Below, in pieces: positions 2,259 to 19,121 of a stretch of DNA of 64,000 bases. The stretch is from Heterobasidion occidentale (taxonomy: Eukaryota > Basidiomycota > Agaricomycetes > Russulales > Bondarzewiaceae), in NCBI GenBank assembly GCA_039111635.1, contig JBCAQO010000006.1:1612001-1676000 (forward strand), read 5' to 3'. The notes beneath the pieces were generated by a model. The model saw only the letters and a program-made list of their open reading frames with translations, made no database searches and was not told the DNA's origin. The position numbers and the translations under genes are program-made. Within the stretch, counting starts at the first letter, position 1. Each line of letters starts with the position of its first letter.

Positions 2259-2315
2259 GAAGATATAAAAAGGAGAGACCCTGTCCTTTTCGAAAGCAAG
2301 AATTCCCCCCAGTAC

Positions 2316-2835
2316 ATGTCCGACCACTCCTCCCTTGATTACTCCCCTAGACGTGCCATGCTCATCGATGATGGAACTACCTCCTCCTCTTCAAGAAACC
2401 CCTCGCCAGACATCATTCTGGCCGTGGCCAACCCCGACACTGGACACCCTAGCCGAAGCAGCCGCCCAGCGACTCCAGAAGGAATTCCCATACCAATCAT
2501 TGTCCACCAAACCACGCTCGCCATCGAAGGTCGAACGGGTTCCTGAACCTCACCATGGTTTGAGGGAGCTCATGACGAGCACAATGAAGGACGTCAAGAA
2601 GAAGGAAGACCTACTCCGTCAACGCCTCCGCGACCGACGACAGTGTTGGCTCAAGGAGACACGAGGCAGGAAACAAGAGGCGAAAGAAGACCAGGAAACC
2701 CTGCGGACCTGGCATCGCCTACAGTTGCTGAGAGAAGTGTACAAGAACCAGCAACAGCTGGTACATCAGCTGCCGGGACCAGAGGGCCCCCTACCAGTAG
2801 TCGAGATCTGCACCCCGGAGAGTTGGAAGGGCTAG
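2316..2835 (+). CDS. Extra post-pol reading frame, first segment (unknown function)
   Basis: Starts 57 bases after the pol stop with MSDHSSLDYSPRRAMLID. This start is also found in E2 (15674) and E3 (25959, minus). The opening frame is conserved to about ILAVANPDTG; from about 2435 the conserved protein continues in the +1 frame as PTLDTLAEAAAQRLQKEF and GLRELMTSTMKDVKKKEDLL, ending at EICTPESWKG and a stop at 2835. By eye, E1/E2 substitutions favour third codon positions of the first frame before ~2440 and of the second frame after it. A +1 frameshift or an ancient indel could join them; no intron is evident. The second part is charged and probably helical. It sits where an env-like gene would be, but no signal peptide or membrane segment is visible. 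Function unknown. Confidence 0.6.
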
Positions 2836-3434
2836 GAGACGCACTGCTCCAGCGCACCACCATCTCCGCGGTAATTCAGATGGCCACAGCGTTAGCCTTA
2901 CAAAGGCTCGCTAACTTCTTCGCAGGGCAACCAGGGAGCGAGAGCGACAACATACCCCGACGCCTCGCTGACGCGAGCGACCAGGTCAGGCTTCTGGCCT
3001 ATGCAGATGATCATAGGGCCGCCTCCTGGTATGCCCGAGGAAACAATGGGGCTTACGCCTTACTCATTCACCCGGACGAGTTCTCCTCCTTCGTCAATTT
3101 GGAGCTCCTACCCGCCCTCATATCGCATACCGACACAAGACACTTCTCCCACGCCCGTCCCGTTCGGATTGACCCATTCCGCATCCAACCATGGAGCGAA
3201 GCTAGCAGAGCGATACCGGCTACAAGTAGTCGAGACGCATCCACCCAGACGGAATATGTCTGGGCTACGGTCCAACGACAGGCACGAAGGGATCGAGAGG
3301 CCCTTCCTCCCACTTCGACAGGACAATCCACCGGGCAGGACGCTGGAGGCAGCAATGAGGAACATCCTCCCAGGTATAGGAGAAACGAGGGACGAGGAAG
3401 CCAGAGGACAAGGGCAATTCTTCAACCCAGGTGA
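2643..3434 (+). CDS. Extra post-pol reading frame, middle segment (unknown function)
   Basis: Overlaps the previous frame and continues past its stop. The part shared with E2 starts around DLHPGELEGLGDALLQRT and runs through ISAVIQMATALALQRLANFF, HRAASWYARGNNGAYALL and HPDEFSSFVNLELLPALI to TQTEYVWATVQRQARRDREA. E2 keeps the same order in one open frame up to its stop at 16516, and then the same residues after that stop. The helix ISAVIQMATALALQRLANF is hydrophobic but short and not a clear membrane anchor. I recognise no domain family. The first ~55 residues of this frame lie over the conserved first segment and may not be coding. Conservation across three decayed copies suggests the ancestor encoded a real protein. 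Confidence 0.5.
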   Translation: MLAQGDTRQETRGERRPGNPADLASPTVAERSVQEPATAGTSAAGTRGPPTSSRDLHPGELEGLGDALLQRTTISAVIQMATALALQRLANFFAGQPGSESDNIPRRLADASDQVRLLAYADDHRAASWYARGNNGAYALLIHPDEFSSFVNLELLPALISHTDTRHFSHARPVRIDPFRIQPWSEASRAIPATSSRDASTQTEYVWATVQRQARRDREALPPTSTGQSTGQDAGGSNEEHPPRYRRNEGRGSQRTRAILQPR

Positions 3435-3692
3435 AGCAGTCCTAGAAGAACTCGACCAAGAGATTTGCCGACTCCAAACCGTCCTCGAGATAATCGAGCT
3501 GAAGGAGCGCATCCACACATTGGTAGAAGAACTCCGATCCGCCAGCGCCCGACTCAGCGAACTACTTCCTGGACTCGAGCGGAACTAGACGCCTGGGACG
3601 AGGTCGAAGATGGCAATTACGACGACACCGACCCCTATTATAGGCCGGATGAAGGATATGGGGATTACGGAGACATTGGCGGAGGATATTAG
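3001..3692 (+). CDS. Extra post-pol frames, last segment: coiled coil and acidic tyrosine-rich tail
   Basis: Two frames carry the conserved end of the post-pol region. The frame ending at 3588 has a heptad-like stretch from about 3430 (GEAVLEELDQEICRLQTVLE, then IIELKERIHTLVEELRSASA), which resembles a coiled coil. E2 keeps it as EETVLEQLDCKICRL and E3 as EETVLKRLNHEIHRLQMVLK. The frame ending at 3692 closes with an acidic, tyrosine-rich tail (DDTDPYYRPDEGYGDYGDIG), kept in E2 as NDTDPYYQPDEGYGDYVDI. The parts of each frame outside these blocks are probably not coding. Either frameshifts have broken one gene, or the element expresses several short proteins. Function unknown. Confidence 0.45.
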
Positions 3693-4399
3693 GCAAGGGA
3701 GTTGAGGAACCCCTGGCCTTTAACACGGTGACGGAGAGGGAAGGACCCTCCACACCACAGGTACCGGTTTCACGCACAGGACGCCGAAACGAACGTCCTG
3801 CATGACGTTAAACTGTGAAAAGATAAGAAGGCAGGGGAAGTACCTGACCATTTCGCGTTGCAGCCCTCCGGTCTCAAGATGAAGGACAAGCATTCAACAC
3901 TCTCGTTGTCAAGAGGTATTCTGACAAGCGAATCGGGCGTCCCGCTTGGATCCCCAGTTTTACAGGGCCCTTTCCGCATTAGGAGGCCCTTAGGATTCAC
4001 AACATAACCTGGTACATGAATGATGCATGAATATTGGTGGGAAATCGTGTTGCATACCCACCGTTGGGGAACGGTGGATCAACCTCGCTGTCAAGGTCTG
4101 ACAGGTGTCTTGGACGTCCCACTTTGGATCTCCAGTTTTACAGGGTCGTTTCCGCATTAGGGGGCCCTATCTGCGATGCAGGAGCTAATGGCCGCACTCC
4201 ATTAGTAACCCAAAACGGAGAAATACATCCGCAACGATGTAAAACTACGAAAGGCTTGGTCCGCAATGACGATAAACTAGTTACCGTCCGGAACGACGCT
4301 AAAGCTACCAAGACCCTCGGAGTGTGGTTGTATTCTGGCAGACGGTGGAAGTGAGGGCCTCCACCGTTGCAGAACCCTGCCGACTAGGTCGAGGTGCTT

Positions 4400-4457
4400 C
4401 CATATTCCATACGCCCTACAGTAAAAGAATATGGGGTCGACACGGTTCAATTCCGTG
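4400..4457 (+). other. Paired hairpins, the second like a tRNA T-arm
   Basis: The first hairpin is CCATATTC (4400-4407) with GAATATGG (4427-4434), its loop holding CGCCCTACAGTAAAA. Six bases later comes CACGG-TTCAATT-CCGTG (4441-4457), a 5-bp stem with a 7-base loop that fits the tRNA T-arm pattern and a Pol III B-box (GGTTCRANNCC). Both hairpins recur in E2 (about 17850-17906) and E3 (23681-23697 plus flank, minus strand). No full acceptor stem or clear A-box is visible, so I do not call it a tRNA gene. Confidence 0.6.
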
Positions 4458-4930
4458 CGAGGGGTTTGGGAACAAGGAGCAGGTTGCCAGCCTTCCGACA
4501 AGGCCACGACTACTCCATGGCGCGCCCATTCTACCCTTGAAGTCCGAAGCAAGGATTCCGCTTCAAGGGCCAGTCAAGAGGCAACTGGGACCGTGCCTCG
4601 TGTTACGATCATCCGCAACAATGTAAAACTACGGATCATCTGCAACAATGTAAAACTACGGACGTCCGCAACGACGATAAAACTACGGGATGTCCGCAAT
4701 GACGATAAACTACGGACGCCCTCCATGGCGTTAAACTGGGAGCACCCTTTCCTTACAGGGTCATGAGCAGTGTCCAAACATGAGATATGTTTTGGCATTG
4801 CTGCGTCCGCAAAGACGTTAAACTACCACTCCTTTCAACATAGGAGATGTCGATCGACATCGTTGTTGATGCCACGATGTTGATCTAGTCCGCAATGACG
4901 ATAAACTATTATCCCTCGTCCTAGGGATCG

Positions 4931-4965
4931 TATTGGAGCTGGAATTACCGCTTCCAGCTGCAATA
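4931..4965 (+). other. Long hairpin whose left arm matches antisense 18S rRNA
   Basis: Left arm TATTGGAGCTGGAA (4931-4944), loop TTACCGC, right arm TTCCAGCTGCAATA (4952-4965): 13 of 14 positions pair. E2 keeps a shorter form of the hairpin around 18100-18132. The 21 bases 4931-4951 equal the reverse complement of the near-universal 18S segment containing GGTAATTCCAGCTCCAATA, as I recall it. Confidence 0.6.
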
Positions 4966-6302
4966 GTCCGAAATGACCTTAAACTACCCTCACCCCGGAG
5001 GATTAAATCTATCGAGGCTCGGGAGGTTCAAGCCAGGCGATAGTGGACGTCCGCAATGACTATAAACTAGTTGCCGTCCTTCATGACGATAAACTGAGCT
5101 GCCCTTCTGTCTACAGGGCCATGTGAGTTGTGTCAAAATAGACCTTCAAGTCTATTCTCGCGACTCTATAAGTTATCCGGTTTGATATAGTATAAACCGT
5201 CACCATCTTACCTCAATGGGAACCCTGTCAAGAAGGAGGAACTGGTCTATGGCCCTATGCGCATCACCGATGAATGTTCCGGCACGCAGAAACGCCTGCT
5301 GTCTTATTTACAGGTACTCCTACGTTGGGAGATGGATAGGTCCGCAATGACCTTGGCATAAACTAGCAGGGCAGTCTGCAACGACTTATGTATAAACTAG
5401 CCTCAGTCCGCAACGACTTAAGGATAAACTAGCGTACGTCCGCAAAGACGCAAAACTACGGACGTCCGGCATGACGTTAAAACTACCAGGACATACCTTA
5501 CGCTGACCCCGCATAATTACCGTCAAGATGGATACCGTGGTCTATTCAAGAGACCATGGGGTTCAAAGTCTATTCTTCAAAGTCCTTACCTCGTGTTCAA
5601 TACGCGGAGCGCTGCTACATGCTCGCTCCCTTGTGAAAAACAAACTCTGGACGAACACTCAATCTCTAACCAGGACGGGCCACCGTATGGGGCTGACAAA
5701 GTTAGGGATCTTCAAAGGGGTCTTGCCGGACTCAAAACAAGTCAAGAAAAGTCTATTCTTGATAGGTGGGTGGGCCTAAGCCTTTAGCAAGCGATCAACC
5801 CACATGCACCTAGAGTCCCCCTCGATACCGGAGATCAAGGAGATGAAGATCTATCTTGGAAACACTGAAGCATGGCCTTCGGCACTTTGGAAGAAGAACG
5901 ACACACACCCATCCACAGACGAGTTTCTATTTCATCCTATAATCATTCGCTCGACACCTTTCTGCATCGTTGCCAGATGACACTGGCTCATCAAACCTAC
6001 CAGGGAGCCCTGGTCGAGTAGCTGCCTATTGACTCTAGGAGTGTACTCACACAAAACGTGCGGTGAAGGAAGAACACCGGGAGAAGGGGCATGGTATGGG
6101 GCTATACCACGAACTTCAAATCAAACAGCTCGACGGAGACGGAAAACTCCTAGGCGTTGTAAACGACGTAGGTCAGTCTTCGCCCCAGAAAACGCAGTGA
6201 TATTGGGAAGACGCATCCCAATCTATTTTGACGACCAGAAAGCAATTGTATGTGGAATGACGATGAAGCTCAAGCGAGTAGTCCCCTCAGGAGTTGGGAC
6301 CT

Positions 6303-6315
6303 AGAAAGGGGGTAA
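6303..6315 (+). promoter_or_regulatory. Polypurine tract of E1
   Basis: AGAAAGGGGGTAA directly abuts the LTR start TGTTATGAC. E2 has AGAGAGGGGGTAA at the same place (19109-19121). Such tracts prime plus-strand DNA synthesis. Confidence 0.85.
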
Positions 6316-6923
6316 TGTTATGACTTGACCGATCGGGGCCCTTCACGGCTGGTCTAACCGATGGATCAAGCATCACATGCTAGGCGGCTTCACTATGGAG
6401 CGTACATCAAGGTATTCGGCATGTCCTTAGGAGCCAACAAGACCGATGGTTCTTCAAGACATCGGTAAAGGCTATATGAGAGGGACATGAGGCTCACGGA
6501 GTTCACACAGTAATATGAGAGGCATTCACATGCCATGGGCTTAGGGCTTACGGGTAAACACCTCGTCGCACCATGATGGATCAGTGCGACTGGAGAAGCA
6601 CAAGAGTAGGCGCCGGCAGAGAAAGACGGCAGCCACAGCTCTCCTAGGATGGGAACCTGGAGAAGCACACGGACTCTTACCCTACACCCTATACAGTATA
6701 TAAGGCCCATAGAATAGGCTGAGGATCTTCAGTCTATTCTCTTTGTTCTTACACAGTCTTCGTACTGTGTACTTCGTTCATTCGTATCCTCGAATACGAA
6801 CCTCATTATTTCCTCCTGTATCATTGCCTAAATACAGTCGAGACTTCGCCCACCGCTCAGTCTATTGTGCAACCTAGGGAAGAGCCCGTTACTCTTGGGT
6901 TACTGAACGAGCAGTTCGTAACA
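6316..6923 (+). repeat. 3' LTR of gypsy element E1
   Basis: 608 bp, starting TGTTATGACTTGACC and ending GTTCGTAACA, so it has TG...CA ends. Homologous LTRs lie at 8632-9214, 19122-19704 and, inverted, 32431-33020. A TATA box TATATAA is at 6697-6703 and the conserved AGTCTATTCTC follows 34 bases on, where the transcript should start. Confidence 0.93.
6697..6740 (+). promoter_or_regulatory. LTR core promoter and inferred transcript start
   Basis: TATATAA (6697-6703) is followed by AGTCTATTCT at 6731-6740, 34 bases from the start of the TATA box. The spacing suits Pol II initiation at this A. The same ten bases are complementary to the primer-binding site after the 5' LTR in E2 and E3. The start site is inferred. 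Confidence 0.6.
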
Positions 6924-8631: not shown

Positions 8632-9214
8632 TGTTATGACTTGACCTGTCGAGGCCCTTCAGGGTCAGTCTATCCGATGGTTCAAGCATCATATGCTAGG
8701 TGACTCTACTCTAGAGCATATATCAAGGTATTTGGCATGTCCTCAGGAGCCGACTAGTCTGATGGTTCTTCAAGACATCGGAAGAGGGTATATGACAGGG
8801 TCATGGATAGAGCGGCTTAGTAAAATAGGCATTCACATGCCATGGGCTTAGGGCTTATGGGTAAGCACCTTGTTGCATCTGGATGGATTGGTGCAACTGG
8901 AGAAGTATAAGAGTAGGCACTGACTGAGAGAGATGGCGACACACGCTTTCCTAGGATGGGTAACTGGAGAAGCATACGGACTCTTACCCTACGCCCTATA
9001 CAGTATATAAGGCCCATAGAATAGGCTGAGGAACTTCAGTCTATTCTCTTTGTTCTTTCTGTATCCTCACATACAGAACTTCGTGTAGGATCACTGCGAC
9101 CACTCCTATATTACATCCTCTAATACAGTCGAGACTCCATCCCTCACTTAGTCCATCATGCAACCTAGGGAAGAACCTGTTACTCTTGGGTTACTGAATA
9201 AGCAGTTTGTAACA
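8632..9214 (+). repeat. 5' LTR of E2
   Basis: 583 bp, TGTTATGACTTGACC to CAGTTTGTAACA. TATATAA is at 9004-9010 and the inferred transcript start AGTCTATTCTC at 9038. The left flank is inverted gag sequence ending CTTGC. Confidence 0.92.
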
Positions 9215-9226
9215 CTAGAATAGACT
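9215..9226 (+). promoter_or_regulatory. Primer-binding site for self-priming
   Basis: CTAGAATAGACT follows the LTR directly. Its last ten bases, AGAATAGACT (9217-9226), are the exact complement of AGTCTATTCT at the inferred 5' end of the transcript (9038-9047). No tRNA 3' end match is evident. This is the arrangement known from Tf1 and related chromoviruses, where the RNA 5' end primes reverse transcription. Confidence 0.7.
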
Positions 9227-9352
9227 CGCTTTTACCCCTACCTTGCACCACACTCTGCTTGCTGCCACACTCTCTCACATAATCCTTGTTGGCGGAGCCA
9301 TAGACCTCCACCGAAGAGCGTTACTTCACACACCCTGGAGCAAGACCTAGGC

Positions 9353-17040: not shown

Positions 17041-19121
17041 GGGAGTTGATGAACCCCTTGTCTCGAGAAGGTGCCAAAGAGAGAAGGACTCTTTGTACCA
17101 CAGGTACCGGTTTCATGCACAGGACACCGAGGAAAATACGTCCACAACAATGTTAAACTACGATAGGAAGGAAAACCTCAAACTTGGGCGACACCCCAAT
17201 CAAGATGTTGACCTGCATGTTGTTAAACTATGAAAAGAGAAGAAGGCAGGGGAAGTACCTGTCTAGCAAGAATTCCTCCGCTTACAAAGGAAAACACACA
17301 AGCGATGTCTCGCTGTCAAGAGGTATTTTGACAGGTGCATGGGTGTCCTGCTAGGATCCCCAGTTTAACAAGACCCTTTCCACATTAGGAGGTCCTTGAA
17401 TAGGATTCAAAAAATACTAGTACACTGGCTACTCGGTGTTGTGGCAATACCGGGGATGCTTAGAATGATGCAAAGAATATGGTGGGAAATTGTGTTGCAT
17501 GCTCACCGTTGGGGAACGATGGAGCTCTTCCTTGCTGTCAAGGTTTGACAGGTGTTTGGTTGTCCCACTTTGGATCGCTAGTTTTACAGGGTCTTTTCCG
17601 CATTAGGGGACCCTACAACTGATGCTAGCACATAGTGTTCATGGCCCACTATGTTGCCAACAGAACCGGAAAAGACATCCACAATGATGTAAAACTACGA
17701 AGGGCTTGGTCCACAATGACTATAAACTAGTTGTCATCTGAAACAATGTCTAAACTACCAAGACCCTCGGAGTGTGGTTACATTCTAGCAGATGGTAGAA
17801 GTGATGACTCCACCGTTGCGGAACCCTGCCAACTAGGTCAAGGTGCTTTTATATTTCATGCGCCCTACAGTAAAAAAATATGGGGTCAACACGGTTCAAT
17901 TCCGTACGAGAGGTTTGGGGATACGGAGCGGGTTGTCGAGCCATCCTACTGGACCACGACTACTCCATGGTGCACCCATTCTACCCTTGAAGTCAGAAGC
18001 AAGAAATTCCGCTTCAAGGGCCAGTCAAGAGGCAACTGGGATAGTGCCTCAGTCCAGCGTCCGTGATGACGTTAAACCATTGCCCTTTGTTCTAGGGGTT
18101 GTATTAGAGCTGGAATTACTCCAGCCTCAATAGTCCACAATGACATTAAACTATTGTCCCTTCAAGCACAGGGATTGTGGGCAGTGACTTTGAAAAAGTC
18201 ACAATCCGTCTGCAATAACGTTAAACTCCACTTACAAGTCTATTCTGGCACCACTCCATAAGTTATCCGGTTTGATATAGCATAAACCGTCACCATCTTT
18301 CTTCAATGGGAACCCTGTCAAGACGGCTGTACTTGGTCTAGGACCCTATGTGCATTACCAATGAAGTTTCCAGCGTACAGAAACGGTCTATCATTTTATT
18401 TACAGGTACCCTTACATTGGAGATGGATAGGTCTGCAACAACCTTGGGTTTAAACTAGCAGGGCAGTCCACAAAGACTTAAGCATAAACTACCCGCAGTC
18501 CACAAAGACTTAAGCATAAACTACCCGACATCTGCAAAGATGAGATAAAACTACGGAGCATCCGGCATGATGTTTAAACTACCAATTATACCTTGAAGCC
18601 ATACCCAAATAATAACTGTTTATGCGGCATGACATCCACTCAAGAAATCATGGACACCAAAGTCTATTCAAGAGACTAGAGGAGTGAAAGTCTATTCTTC
18701 AAAATCCTTACCTCGTGTTCAATACGTGGAGTGAAGCTACATGCTCACTCCCATGTGACAAACAAATACTAGATGAACACTTGACCTCTAACCTAGATGG
18801 GCTACCATATAGGGCTGACAGAGTTAGGGATCTTCAAAAGGGTCCTGCCGGACTCAAAACAAGTCAAGGACTGTGGTTGTTCTTGATAGGTTTGTGGGCC
18901 TAATCTTCGTAAAGTGATCAACCCACACACCTGGAGTCCCCCTCGATACCGGAAATCAAGGAGGAAGAAGATCTATCCTGGAAACACTGAAGCATGGCCT
19001 TCAGCATTTTGAAAGAAGAACAACACATACACCACACACAGACAAGTCTCTAACTCATTCTTCATGAGGCTTGCAAGCAGCGAGTAGTCCTTCCAGGAGT
19101 TAGGACTTAGAGAGGGGGTAA
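17041..19121 (+). repeat. Structured non-coding tail of E2
   Basis: Same order of hairpins and short motifs as the E1 tail, in decayed form. Examples are GTCCACAATGACTATAAACT near 17701, CATC-tgcaaa-GATG at 18529-18542, CATC-cggcat-GATG at 18559-18572, the T-arm-like CACGGTTCAATTCCGTA at 17890-17906, and two CCGCATTAGG-type blocks near 17300-17390 and 17540-17620. It ends in the polypurine tract at 19109-19121. No gene seen. Confidence 0.65.

Follow-up and report, generated by a model that had tools for sequence, protein, structure and literature searches.

We analysed a 64,000-nucleotide stretch of Heterobasidion occidentale DNA (assembly GCA_039111635.1, contig JBCAQO010000006.1, positions 1,612,001 to 1,676,000 of the forward strand; hereafter the window), which holds two copies, E1 and E2, of a chromodomain-bearing long terminal repeat (LTR) retrotransposon whose 3′ tail carries an array of short hairpin units matching coremin, a motif of RNA viruses. 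The E1 pol matched RNase H, integrase, a Tf2-1-like SH3 domain and a chromodomain (in 1320-2255, PF00385 at 1.5e-14 and SH3_Tf2-1 at 1.4e-19), and its named protein relatives are from the basidiomycetes Dentipellis, Sparassis, Antrodiella and Phellinidium. The E1 tail starts where the pol frame stops, at about 3690 (several relatives have the frame open that far), and runs to the 3′ LTR at 6316. The LTR ends read TGTTATGAC...GTAACA, with GTAGCA at the end of the E2 3′ LTR. Right after the 5′ LTR, AGAATAGACT at 9217-9226 is complementary to AGTCTATTCT in three E1/E2 LTRs (6731, 9038 and 19528), and the motif spanning the primer-binding site junction gave 141 + 126 = 267 genome matches at up to 3 mismatches, against 0 for the control. 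Because the sequence after the 5′ LTR is complementary to a segment inside the LTR, it marks the element as putatively self-priming, of the Tf1/sushi kind.

2064 to 2216, + strand: chromodomain, at the C-terminal end of the E1 integrase within pol
6316 to 6923, + strand: E1 3′ LTR, containing AGTCTATTCT at 6731, complementary to the primer-binding site
9215 to 9229, + strand: E2 primer-binding site, immediately 3′ of the 5′ LTR (8632-9214) and complementary to an LTR segment

Nineteen hairpin units, u1 to u19, lie in the E1 tail from 3795 to 5485, every one in the sense orientation. This agrees with the roughly 19 copies reported by an earlier account made from the letters of the window (the sequence-only reading), and the stems named there were also recovered (CATC/GATG at 4226-4239 and CGTC/GACG at 4663-4676 in E1; CATC/GATG at 18529-18542 and 18559-18572 in E2). 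Its statement that every unit can pair held for the inner 3-bp stem (hp1), which is fully paired, with at least three Watson-Crick pairs, in 17 of 19 E1 units, and failed for u5 and u6, where the stem is broken; the fourth pair is absent in several units (u3, u11-u13). The order of the units is the same in E1 and E2, as it had proposed, with only 11-12 units left in E2 by a like scan and with gains and losses of units mostly at 4600-4710. In 3784-5490, TAAA?ACT occurred 17 times (u4 and u18, which have variant tails, are outside this count), compared with a mean of 0.59 and a maximum of 5 in 500 shuffles. The strict unit form GTCN6GACNNTAAACT gave 939 + 945 matches in the 45-Mb genome and 2 + 2 with the reversed control, while a genome search for CGCAAH-loop units with a different middle pair gave 0. 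Among 100 strict-form matches listed, the sites were mostly clustered with recurring spacings and few were solitary (e.g., C1:1111171), so that some genomic matches may lie outside the E1/E2 family. The individual units, together with the second hairpins (hp2) that follow several of them and a structured domain lying between u4 and u5, are as follows.

3795 to 3815, + strand: u1, loop CTGCAT, tail AAACTG, class B (loop base 2 is T, last tail base is G); stem GTC/GAC, but GAC/GTC in clade E
4227 to 4247, + strand: u2, stem ATC/GAT, loop CGCAAC
4259 to 4279, + strand: u3, loop CGCAAT; strict coremin match, with hp1 of u4 as hp2
4286 to 4307, + strand: u4, loop CGGAAC, tail AAAGCTA
4308 to 4470, + strand: structured domain with several branches, lying between u4 and u5 and conserved across the five clades
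4611 to 4631, + strand: u5, broken stem ATC/AAT in E1; most aligned relatives have it paired
4638 to 4658, + strand: u6, stem broken in E1
4664 to 4685, + strand: u7, loop CGCAAC
4692 to 4712, + strand: u8, loop CGCAAT; strict coremin match, with hp1 of u9 as hp2
4718 to 4738, + strand: u9, stem GCC/GGC (GTC/GAC in other clades), loop CTCCAT, class B
4744 to 4761, + strand: hp2 of u9, hairpin ACCCT/AGGGT
4805 to 4825, + strand: u10, loop CGCAAA; strict coremin match, its spacer GTTAAACTA being the coremin spacer
4829 to 4846, + strand: hp2 of u10, hairpin CTCCT/AGGAG
4888 to 4908, + strand: u11, loop CGCAAT; strict coremin match
4911 to 4928, + strand: hp2 of u11, ATCCCT/AGGGAT; different sequence and same fold in other copies
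4966 to 4986, + strand: u12, loop CGAAAT; strict coremin match
4988 to 5001, + strand: hp2 of u12, hairpin CCTC/GAGG
5049 to 5069, + strand: u13, loop CGCAAT; strict coremin match, with hp1 of u14 as hp2
5076 to 5096, + strand: u14, loop CTTCAT, tail AAACTG, class B
5101 to 5119, + strand: hp2 of u14, hairpin GCCCT/AGGGC
5340 to 5365, + strand: u15, 5-bp stem, loop CGCAAT, long spacer
5374 to 5399, + strand: u16, loop TGCAAC, long spacer
5406 to 5431, + strand: u17, loop CGCAAC, long spacer
5438 to 5458, + strand: u18, loop CGCAAA, tail CAAAACTA
5464 to 5485, + strand: u19, the final unit, loop CGGCAT, weak hp2 (AGG/CCT)
17139 to 18581, + strand: E2 array, reduced and decayed, with one strict match of hp1, loop and spacer at 18560 and none with hp2

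For comparison, 68 loci of the element were collected, and 62 tails, E1 and E2 included, were aligned once duplicates and incomplete copies had been removed (L009 and L039, which are the copies in the window itself; L003 and L005, which overlap L004 and L006; L041, a near-duplicate of L040; and the incomplete L045, L063, L065 and W3). Five clades, A to E, were read by us from the tree, with E1 in A and E2 in E (L007 and L038 are not in the per-clade list); 19 representative tails were cut into modules, and 25, 24 and 22 served, respectively, in the whole-tail conservation comparison, in a folding comparison and in the local identity comparison with the strand-symmetric wobble count. The units are common to all five clades sampled.

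In the excerpted text of the coremin paper (Dilweg, Peer and Olsthoorn 2023, PMC10520033), from which all statements under that accession are taken, coremin is given as GUCCGAAGACGUUAAACUAC, with a 4-bp hp1, a YGAD or six-base YGNNAD loop, a spacer of 8-10 nt and an hp2 required in structure only; it stalls Xrn1 in vitro, and its three-dimensional structure was unsolved in 2023. The hexaloops tested as resistant are CGCAAU, CGAAAU and CGCGAA, the first two in the context of beet necrotic yellow vein virus, and the motif is reported in RNA viruses of plants and, among viruses of fungi, in Hypoviridae and Chrysoviridae (PMC10520033). In Saccharomyces cerevisiae, dependence on Xrn1 had been shown in earlier work, according to the excerpts at hand (PMC5869530).

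The E1 unit has the same layout, namely a GUC/GAC hp1, a six-base loop, a UAAACUA spacer and a second hairpin conserved in structure only. When a strict match was defined as three Watson-Crick pairs plus YGNNAD plus the spacer, the 62 tails yielded 269 matches in the sense orientation, 0 in antisense and 0 in 20 shuffles of each tail. At least one strict match with hp2 was found in 60 of the 62 tails (the exceptions being L046 and E2) and at least three in 40. Within the window, all six full strict matches lie in E1 (u3, u8 and u10-u13), with none on the minus strand; u19 and the site at 18560 in E2 match strictly without hp2. Six E1 loops are of kinds tested as resistant (CGCAAU five times, CGAAAU once), and the spacer measures 8-10 nt with UAAACUA in most E1 units, u1, u9 and u14 ending in AAACTG and u4 and u18 varying. 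One copy, L002 (G000:C1:277944-277962), carries at u10 an exact 20-nt tetraloop coremin, where its close relative L001 has the hexaloop CGCGAA.

Of 741 units (those too close to the cut end excluded), 533 (72%) had a hairpin of at least 4 bp starting 0-8 nt downstream, compared with 28% of random positions in these tails (1057 of 3720) and 20% in E1 coding DNA. Because a second hairpin comes after most units, the unit is part of a larger arrangement. From u9 to u13 in E1 this arrangement recurs at a pitch of 78-87 nt as unit, small hairpin and longer hairpin, and in the dense clusters hp1 of the next unit doubles as hp2 of the preceding one. Loop base 2 and the last tail base occurred together as G-A 584 times, T-G 136, A-A 57, T-A 11 and G-G 2, with two others; this association suggests a contact between the two bases, although the T class of units may descend from one ancestral unit.

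Between clades, the positions of u10-u12 were 0.907 identical, against 0.593 for the rest of 4735-4985, a contrast that is strong partly because the spacer hairpins there have been replaced rather than mutated. Loop base 5 (A) was kept in 99.8% and AAACT in 97% of the compared cells. The pairing is maintained as well. The middle stem pair was Watson-Crick in 964 of 973 cells, and 23 two-sided Watson-Crick changes were inferred in the unit stems, some of which (u5, u8 and u9 in L037, L006 and L004) probably reflect alignment of non-equivalent units. In u1, T:A is replaced by A:T in all five clade-E tails, and in u9 T:A is replaced by C:G, both without CpG. At one spacer-hairpin site, three sequence types form one fold (16, 32 and 10 of 59 rows, with one other), and in one of these types three neighbouring pairs are compensated without CpG. 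Covariation in this hairpin was 0.194 with all 18 distinct rows of one type, compared with 0.102 after shuffling (0/500), and 0.186 versus 0.101 with 11 of the 18 rows (0/500 shuffles; slid controls at most 0.050). In the 11-row test, two of five measures were not above shuffles (two-sided-change pairs, 124/500; further pair types, 499/500). Hairpins of at least 7 bp were enriched in the E1 tail (12 versus 2.7 shuffled) and in the LTR (5 versus 1.0).

The caution of the sequence-only reading, that paired changes could arise from CpG decay, is borne out in part, since most of the 23 two-sided changes lie at CpG-type positions; as the only cause, CpG decay is ruled out, because the u1 and u9 swaps and the three adjacent spacer-hairpin pairs compensate without CpG. 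That reading had also taken the array to be undescribed. Its motif is in fact that of coremin-type Xrn1-resistant RNA, while no report of a coremin-type motif in a retroelement was found among the literature matches listed, and a term search of the coremin paper returned no mention of retroelements or phages in the text it covered (PMC10520033). Finally, the motif was expected in other young copies, and all 32 clade A tails counted carry 2-8 full strict motifs; clade A has the shortest branches in the tree, its ages not being dated.

Covariation extends to the domain at 4308-4470, where 10 pairs showed two-sided changes, compared with 3.4 in shuffles (0/300) and 2-8 in slid controls. This domain holds a T-arm-like hairpin, CACGG-TTCAATT-CCGTG, which adjoins the closing stem in the 25-row fold and is displaced by an alternative fold with 55 rows; it also resembles an RNA polymerase III B-box. 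A tRNA-like core at 4308-4470 is an attractive reading but was not favoured, the alternative fold being preferred with all 55 rows, and ARAGORN found no tRNA in the window. A resemblance to the resume codon of transfer-messenger RNA (tmRNA) was dropped, as Rfam gave no tmRNA match in the tail. Rfam likewise found no known family in the window, and none in 3600-6320 at E up to 5.

Elsewhere in the tail, two segments (3932-3991 and 4110-4169) form a distinct 60-nt direct repeat, 75% identical, which is double in E2 too. The E1 tail also contains three exact copies of the 10-nt self-primer AGTCTATTCT (5149, 5567 and 5750), able to pair with the primer-binding site, and E2 has two. Upstream, at 2269-3585 and its clade A equivalents, two overlapping frames follow the chromodomain and remain open in most of 14 listed clade A copies. 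In E1 the smaller frame has a coiled-coil-like stretch at its end, and the pieces tested had no Pfam match.

We consider that the 3′ tail of this self-priming chromovirus is probably a chain of coremin-type blocks of the exonuclease-resistant RNA (xrRNA) class xrRNA-C, which would halt 5′-3′ decay and leave a stable RNA of about 3 kb. As judged from the published behaviour of coremin, once the element RNA lost its cap, Xrn1 would digest it from the 5′ end and would stall one base upstream of the first working hp1, with later units serving as back-ups behind it. What is left, the predicted 3-kb product, would comprise the tail and the start of the 3′ LTR. The host genome has XRN_N matches at two loci. 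What the element might gain is the least certain part of the proposal: among the candidates, which are occupation of Xrn1, interference with silencing and preservation of the 3′ part, the benefit may lie in Xrn1 occupation or blunted RNA silencing rather than in preserving a full-length template, which is disfavoured because the 5′ half would still be lost.

Several observations weigh against an array of exonuclease blocks. Loops meeting YGNNAD make up 9 of 19 in E1 and 46% of the 792 units in the 62 tails; seven E1 loops end in C, and a final-C hexaloop was not resistant in the tested context, yet is natural in a chrysovirus (PMC10520033). The loop G is missing from u1, u9 and u14, which have T at position 2, and the spacers of u15-u17 exceed 8-10 nt. 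Tails of clades D and E mostly hold 0-1 full strict motif each (up to 3), and E2 has no strict match with hp2. The tetraloop pattern by itself gave one genome match, as did its reversed control, so that what gives the L002 tetraloop weight is where it sits in the array. When six stretches were folded, the best structures contained hp1 for u10, u11, u14 and u19 and lacked it for u8, u9, u12 and u18. Nor was a sense preference seen in GU versus AC counts for the unit stems (65 versus 85), for helix sites (non-CpG, 52 versus 84; CpG, 175 versus 164) or for the strand-symmetric wobble count (382 versus 430, shuffle ratio 0.84), and windowed folding energy was not better on the sense strand, with antisense slightly lower in most copies. 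Because the wobble and folding tests show no preferred strand, the assignment to an RNA strand rests on orientation and motif identity.

These points bear on other accounts of the array as well. The absence of strand preference in the wobble and folding tests, together with the irregular spacing of conserved repeats, would suit an array of DNA sites for a host binding protein, comparable with the su(Hw) insulator in Drosophila gypsy. That account is quite unlikely, since the stem swaps (GTC/GAC to GAC/GTC and to GCC/GGC) alter both half sites with pairing retained, the following hairpins differ in sequence with pairing retained, and the strict matches are confined to one strand. The su(Hw) array resembles that of E1 as a set of short sites in a gypsy element; it differs in consisting of DNA-binding sites upstream of gag, without paired stems. 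The array might also have no function: tandem duplication could have built it in a free noncoding tail, and its apparent compensation could come from CpG decay and from imperfect palindromes corrected by template switching. Tandem duplications of 27 and 32 bp do exist, long hairpins are enriched in the tail as in the LTR, tandem repeats are frequent in plant LTR elements among the literature matches listed (in the portions of those sources at hand), and the whole-tail conservation of units is unexceptional under circular shifts (182 of 1551 equally high), because the remaining tail is also conserved. Even so, we regard it as highly improbable, given the identity of units relative to the sequence between them at 4735-4985, the near invariance of loop base 5 and AAACT between clades, and the match, which it leaves unaccounted for, with a motif defined independently and by experiment.

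Two further accounts accept an RNA fold and assign it another task. Coremin and YGNNAD hexaloops also stall scanning ribosomes in two cell-free systems (PMC10520033), and the array could insulate the tail or switch the RNA from translation to packaging; this is unlikely, as the array lies 3′ of the last reading frame, beyond the reach of cap-derived scanning ribosomes, and nineteen copies would not be needed. The units could instead be sites for Gag or another packaging factor, forming a repeated packaging signal in the 3′ tail. Localisation and packaging of Ty3 RNA depend on sequences in the untranslated region (UTR) and POL, as far as the source excerpts go, and the extra self-primer copies in the tail would fit. 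We give this account a low probability as well, the motif being an established exonuclease block in unrelated RNA viruses, a function that also accounts for the second hairpin.

Phages and bacteria also carry the exact unit. Of the 23 bacterial rows in the scan for it, 19 fall in Bacillota by their record titles, and the best annotated phage matches include Lactobacillus phages LR2, Lj928 and JNU_P5, two Enterococcus phages and Synechococcus phage S-B43, the others listed being partial or weak. A looser scan of IMG/VR with CCGCAANGNNNNTAAACTA gave at least 100 new loci with at least 102 matches, on which the following counts rest; loci fetched with the exact unit were kept out of the pairing count, being paired by construction. 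The outer two stem pairs were both complementary in 51 of the 102 matches listed, compared with about 6 by chance, and the paired matches listed comprised eight stem types, 28 of these matches having a stem other than GTC/GAC. L187 and L200 have the same flanks and the stems AGAC/GTCT and AGTC/GACT. Among the matches listed, 39 of 46 distinct paired contexts were intergenic, versus 10 of 45 unpaired ones, and the paired motif mostly shared the orientation of its neighbouring genes (28 of 36 for the downstream gene and 30 of 38 for the upstream one).

The phage motif is a hairpin with loop CGCAAH followed by N-UAAACUA, with covarying stems (L122-L221, also L069-L121). At L155 (about 1016) and L181 (about 1596), a second adjacent unit has the loop CACCGA in place of CGCAAN. 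In Lactobacillus phages L071, L079, L082, L087, L090 and L223, a tRNA or tRNA-like stretch lies directly 5′ of the UAAACUA motif; some of these stretches have an odd anticodon call, and several loci continue with a terminator-like hairpin. In phage LR2, the tRNA-like stretch and the motif lie inside an unannotated stretch of about 1.6 kb.

Because a second hairpin was not clearly enriched after the phage motif (11 of 69 paired contexts versus 13% at random; 10 of 44 in the new loci), we did not class it as coremin. Membership in the ornate phage RNAs GOLLD or ROOL was rejected on the Rfam scans: these models had no match in the window, none in 3600-6320 at E up to 5, none in 32 of the 53 loci L069-L121 at the gathering threshold and none in 11 at E up to 1. 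No Rfam match overlapped the phage motif in the 32 loci scanned at the gathering threshold.

Lactobacillus and Synechococcus have RNase J. The hairpin-UAAACUA module may, as a tentative and somewhat doubtful possibility drawn from these sequence matches, be a general, movable block to 5′-3′ exonucleases, shared by RNA viruses, the chromovirus array and phages of RNase J bacteria (Lactobacillus, other Bacillota and marine Synechococcus). In that case RNA viruses would use the fold against Xrn1, the chromovirus would have amplified it to as many as 19 units making an RNA like the subgenomic flaviviral RNA (sfRNA), and the intergenic phage motif would protect the mRNA downstream of it.

Among known systems, the closest to the E1 array is the coremin xrRNA-C of beny-, cucumo-, umbra-, enamo-, hypo- and chrysoviruses, which shares with it the GUC/GAC hp1, the hexaloops CGCAAU, CGAAAU and CGCGAA, the spacer GUUAAACUA, an hp2 conserved only in structure and a 3′ noncoding position, with the exact tetraloop form in one element copy (PMC10520033). 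Unlike the viral motif in that source, the array is carried by an LTR retrotransposon and reaches up to 18-19 copies per tail, and some element loops have C at position 6, or T at position 2 with a tail ending in G. The proposed RNA of about 3 kb would be comparable to noncoding RNA 3 (ncRNA3) of beet necrotic yellow vein virus or to flaviviral sfRNA. Flaviviral xrRNAs differ from the E1 units in their larger pseudoknot fold and few copies, and to our knowledge the two have no sequence similarity. Tandem flaviviral xrRNAs are, like the E1 array, serial exonuclease blocks in a 3′ UTR, and a representative xrRNA also blocks RNase J1 and Dxo1, so that the block is mechanical (MacFadden 2018, PMC5760640, excerpts). 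E1 shares with Tf1/sushi-type chromoviruses the chromodomain, the Tf2-1-like SH3 domain and a primer-binding site complementary to an LTR segment (PMC2864245, in part), and differs from them in the roughly 4 kb that follow the chromodomain, including the 2.6-kb structured noncoding tail with the array.

In the excerpted text of MacFadden 2018, xrRNAs are said never to encounter RNase J1 naturally (PMC5760640); the look-alike in Lactobacillus and Synechococcus phages contrasts with this and raises a testable question. If the proposal for the chromovirus holds, its tail would be the first exonuclease-resistant RNA known to us in a retrotransposon (none was found among the literature matches listed), and the array would be of unusual length. 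It would then add natural variants of coremin by the hundred and would predict a stable noncoding RNA from the element. Retroelements, besides RNA viruses, would then resist the 5′-3′ decay pathway.

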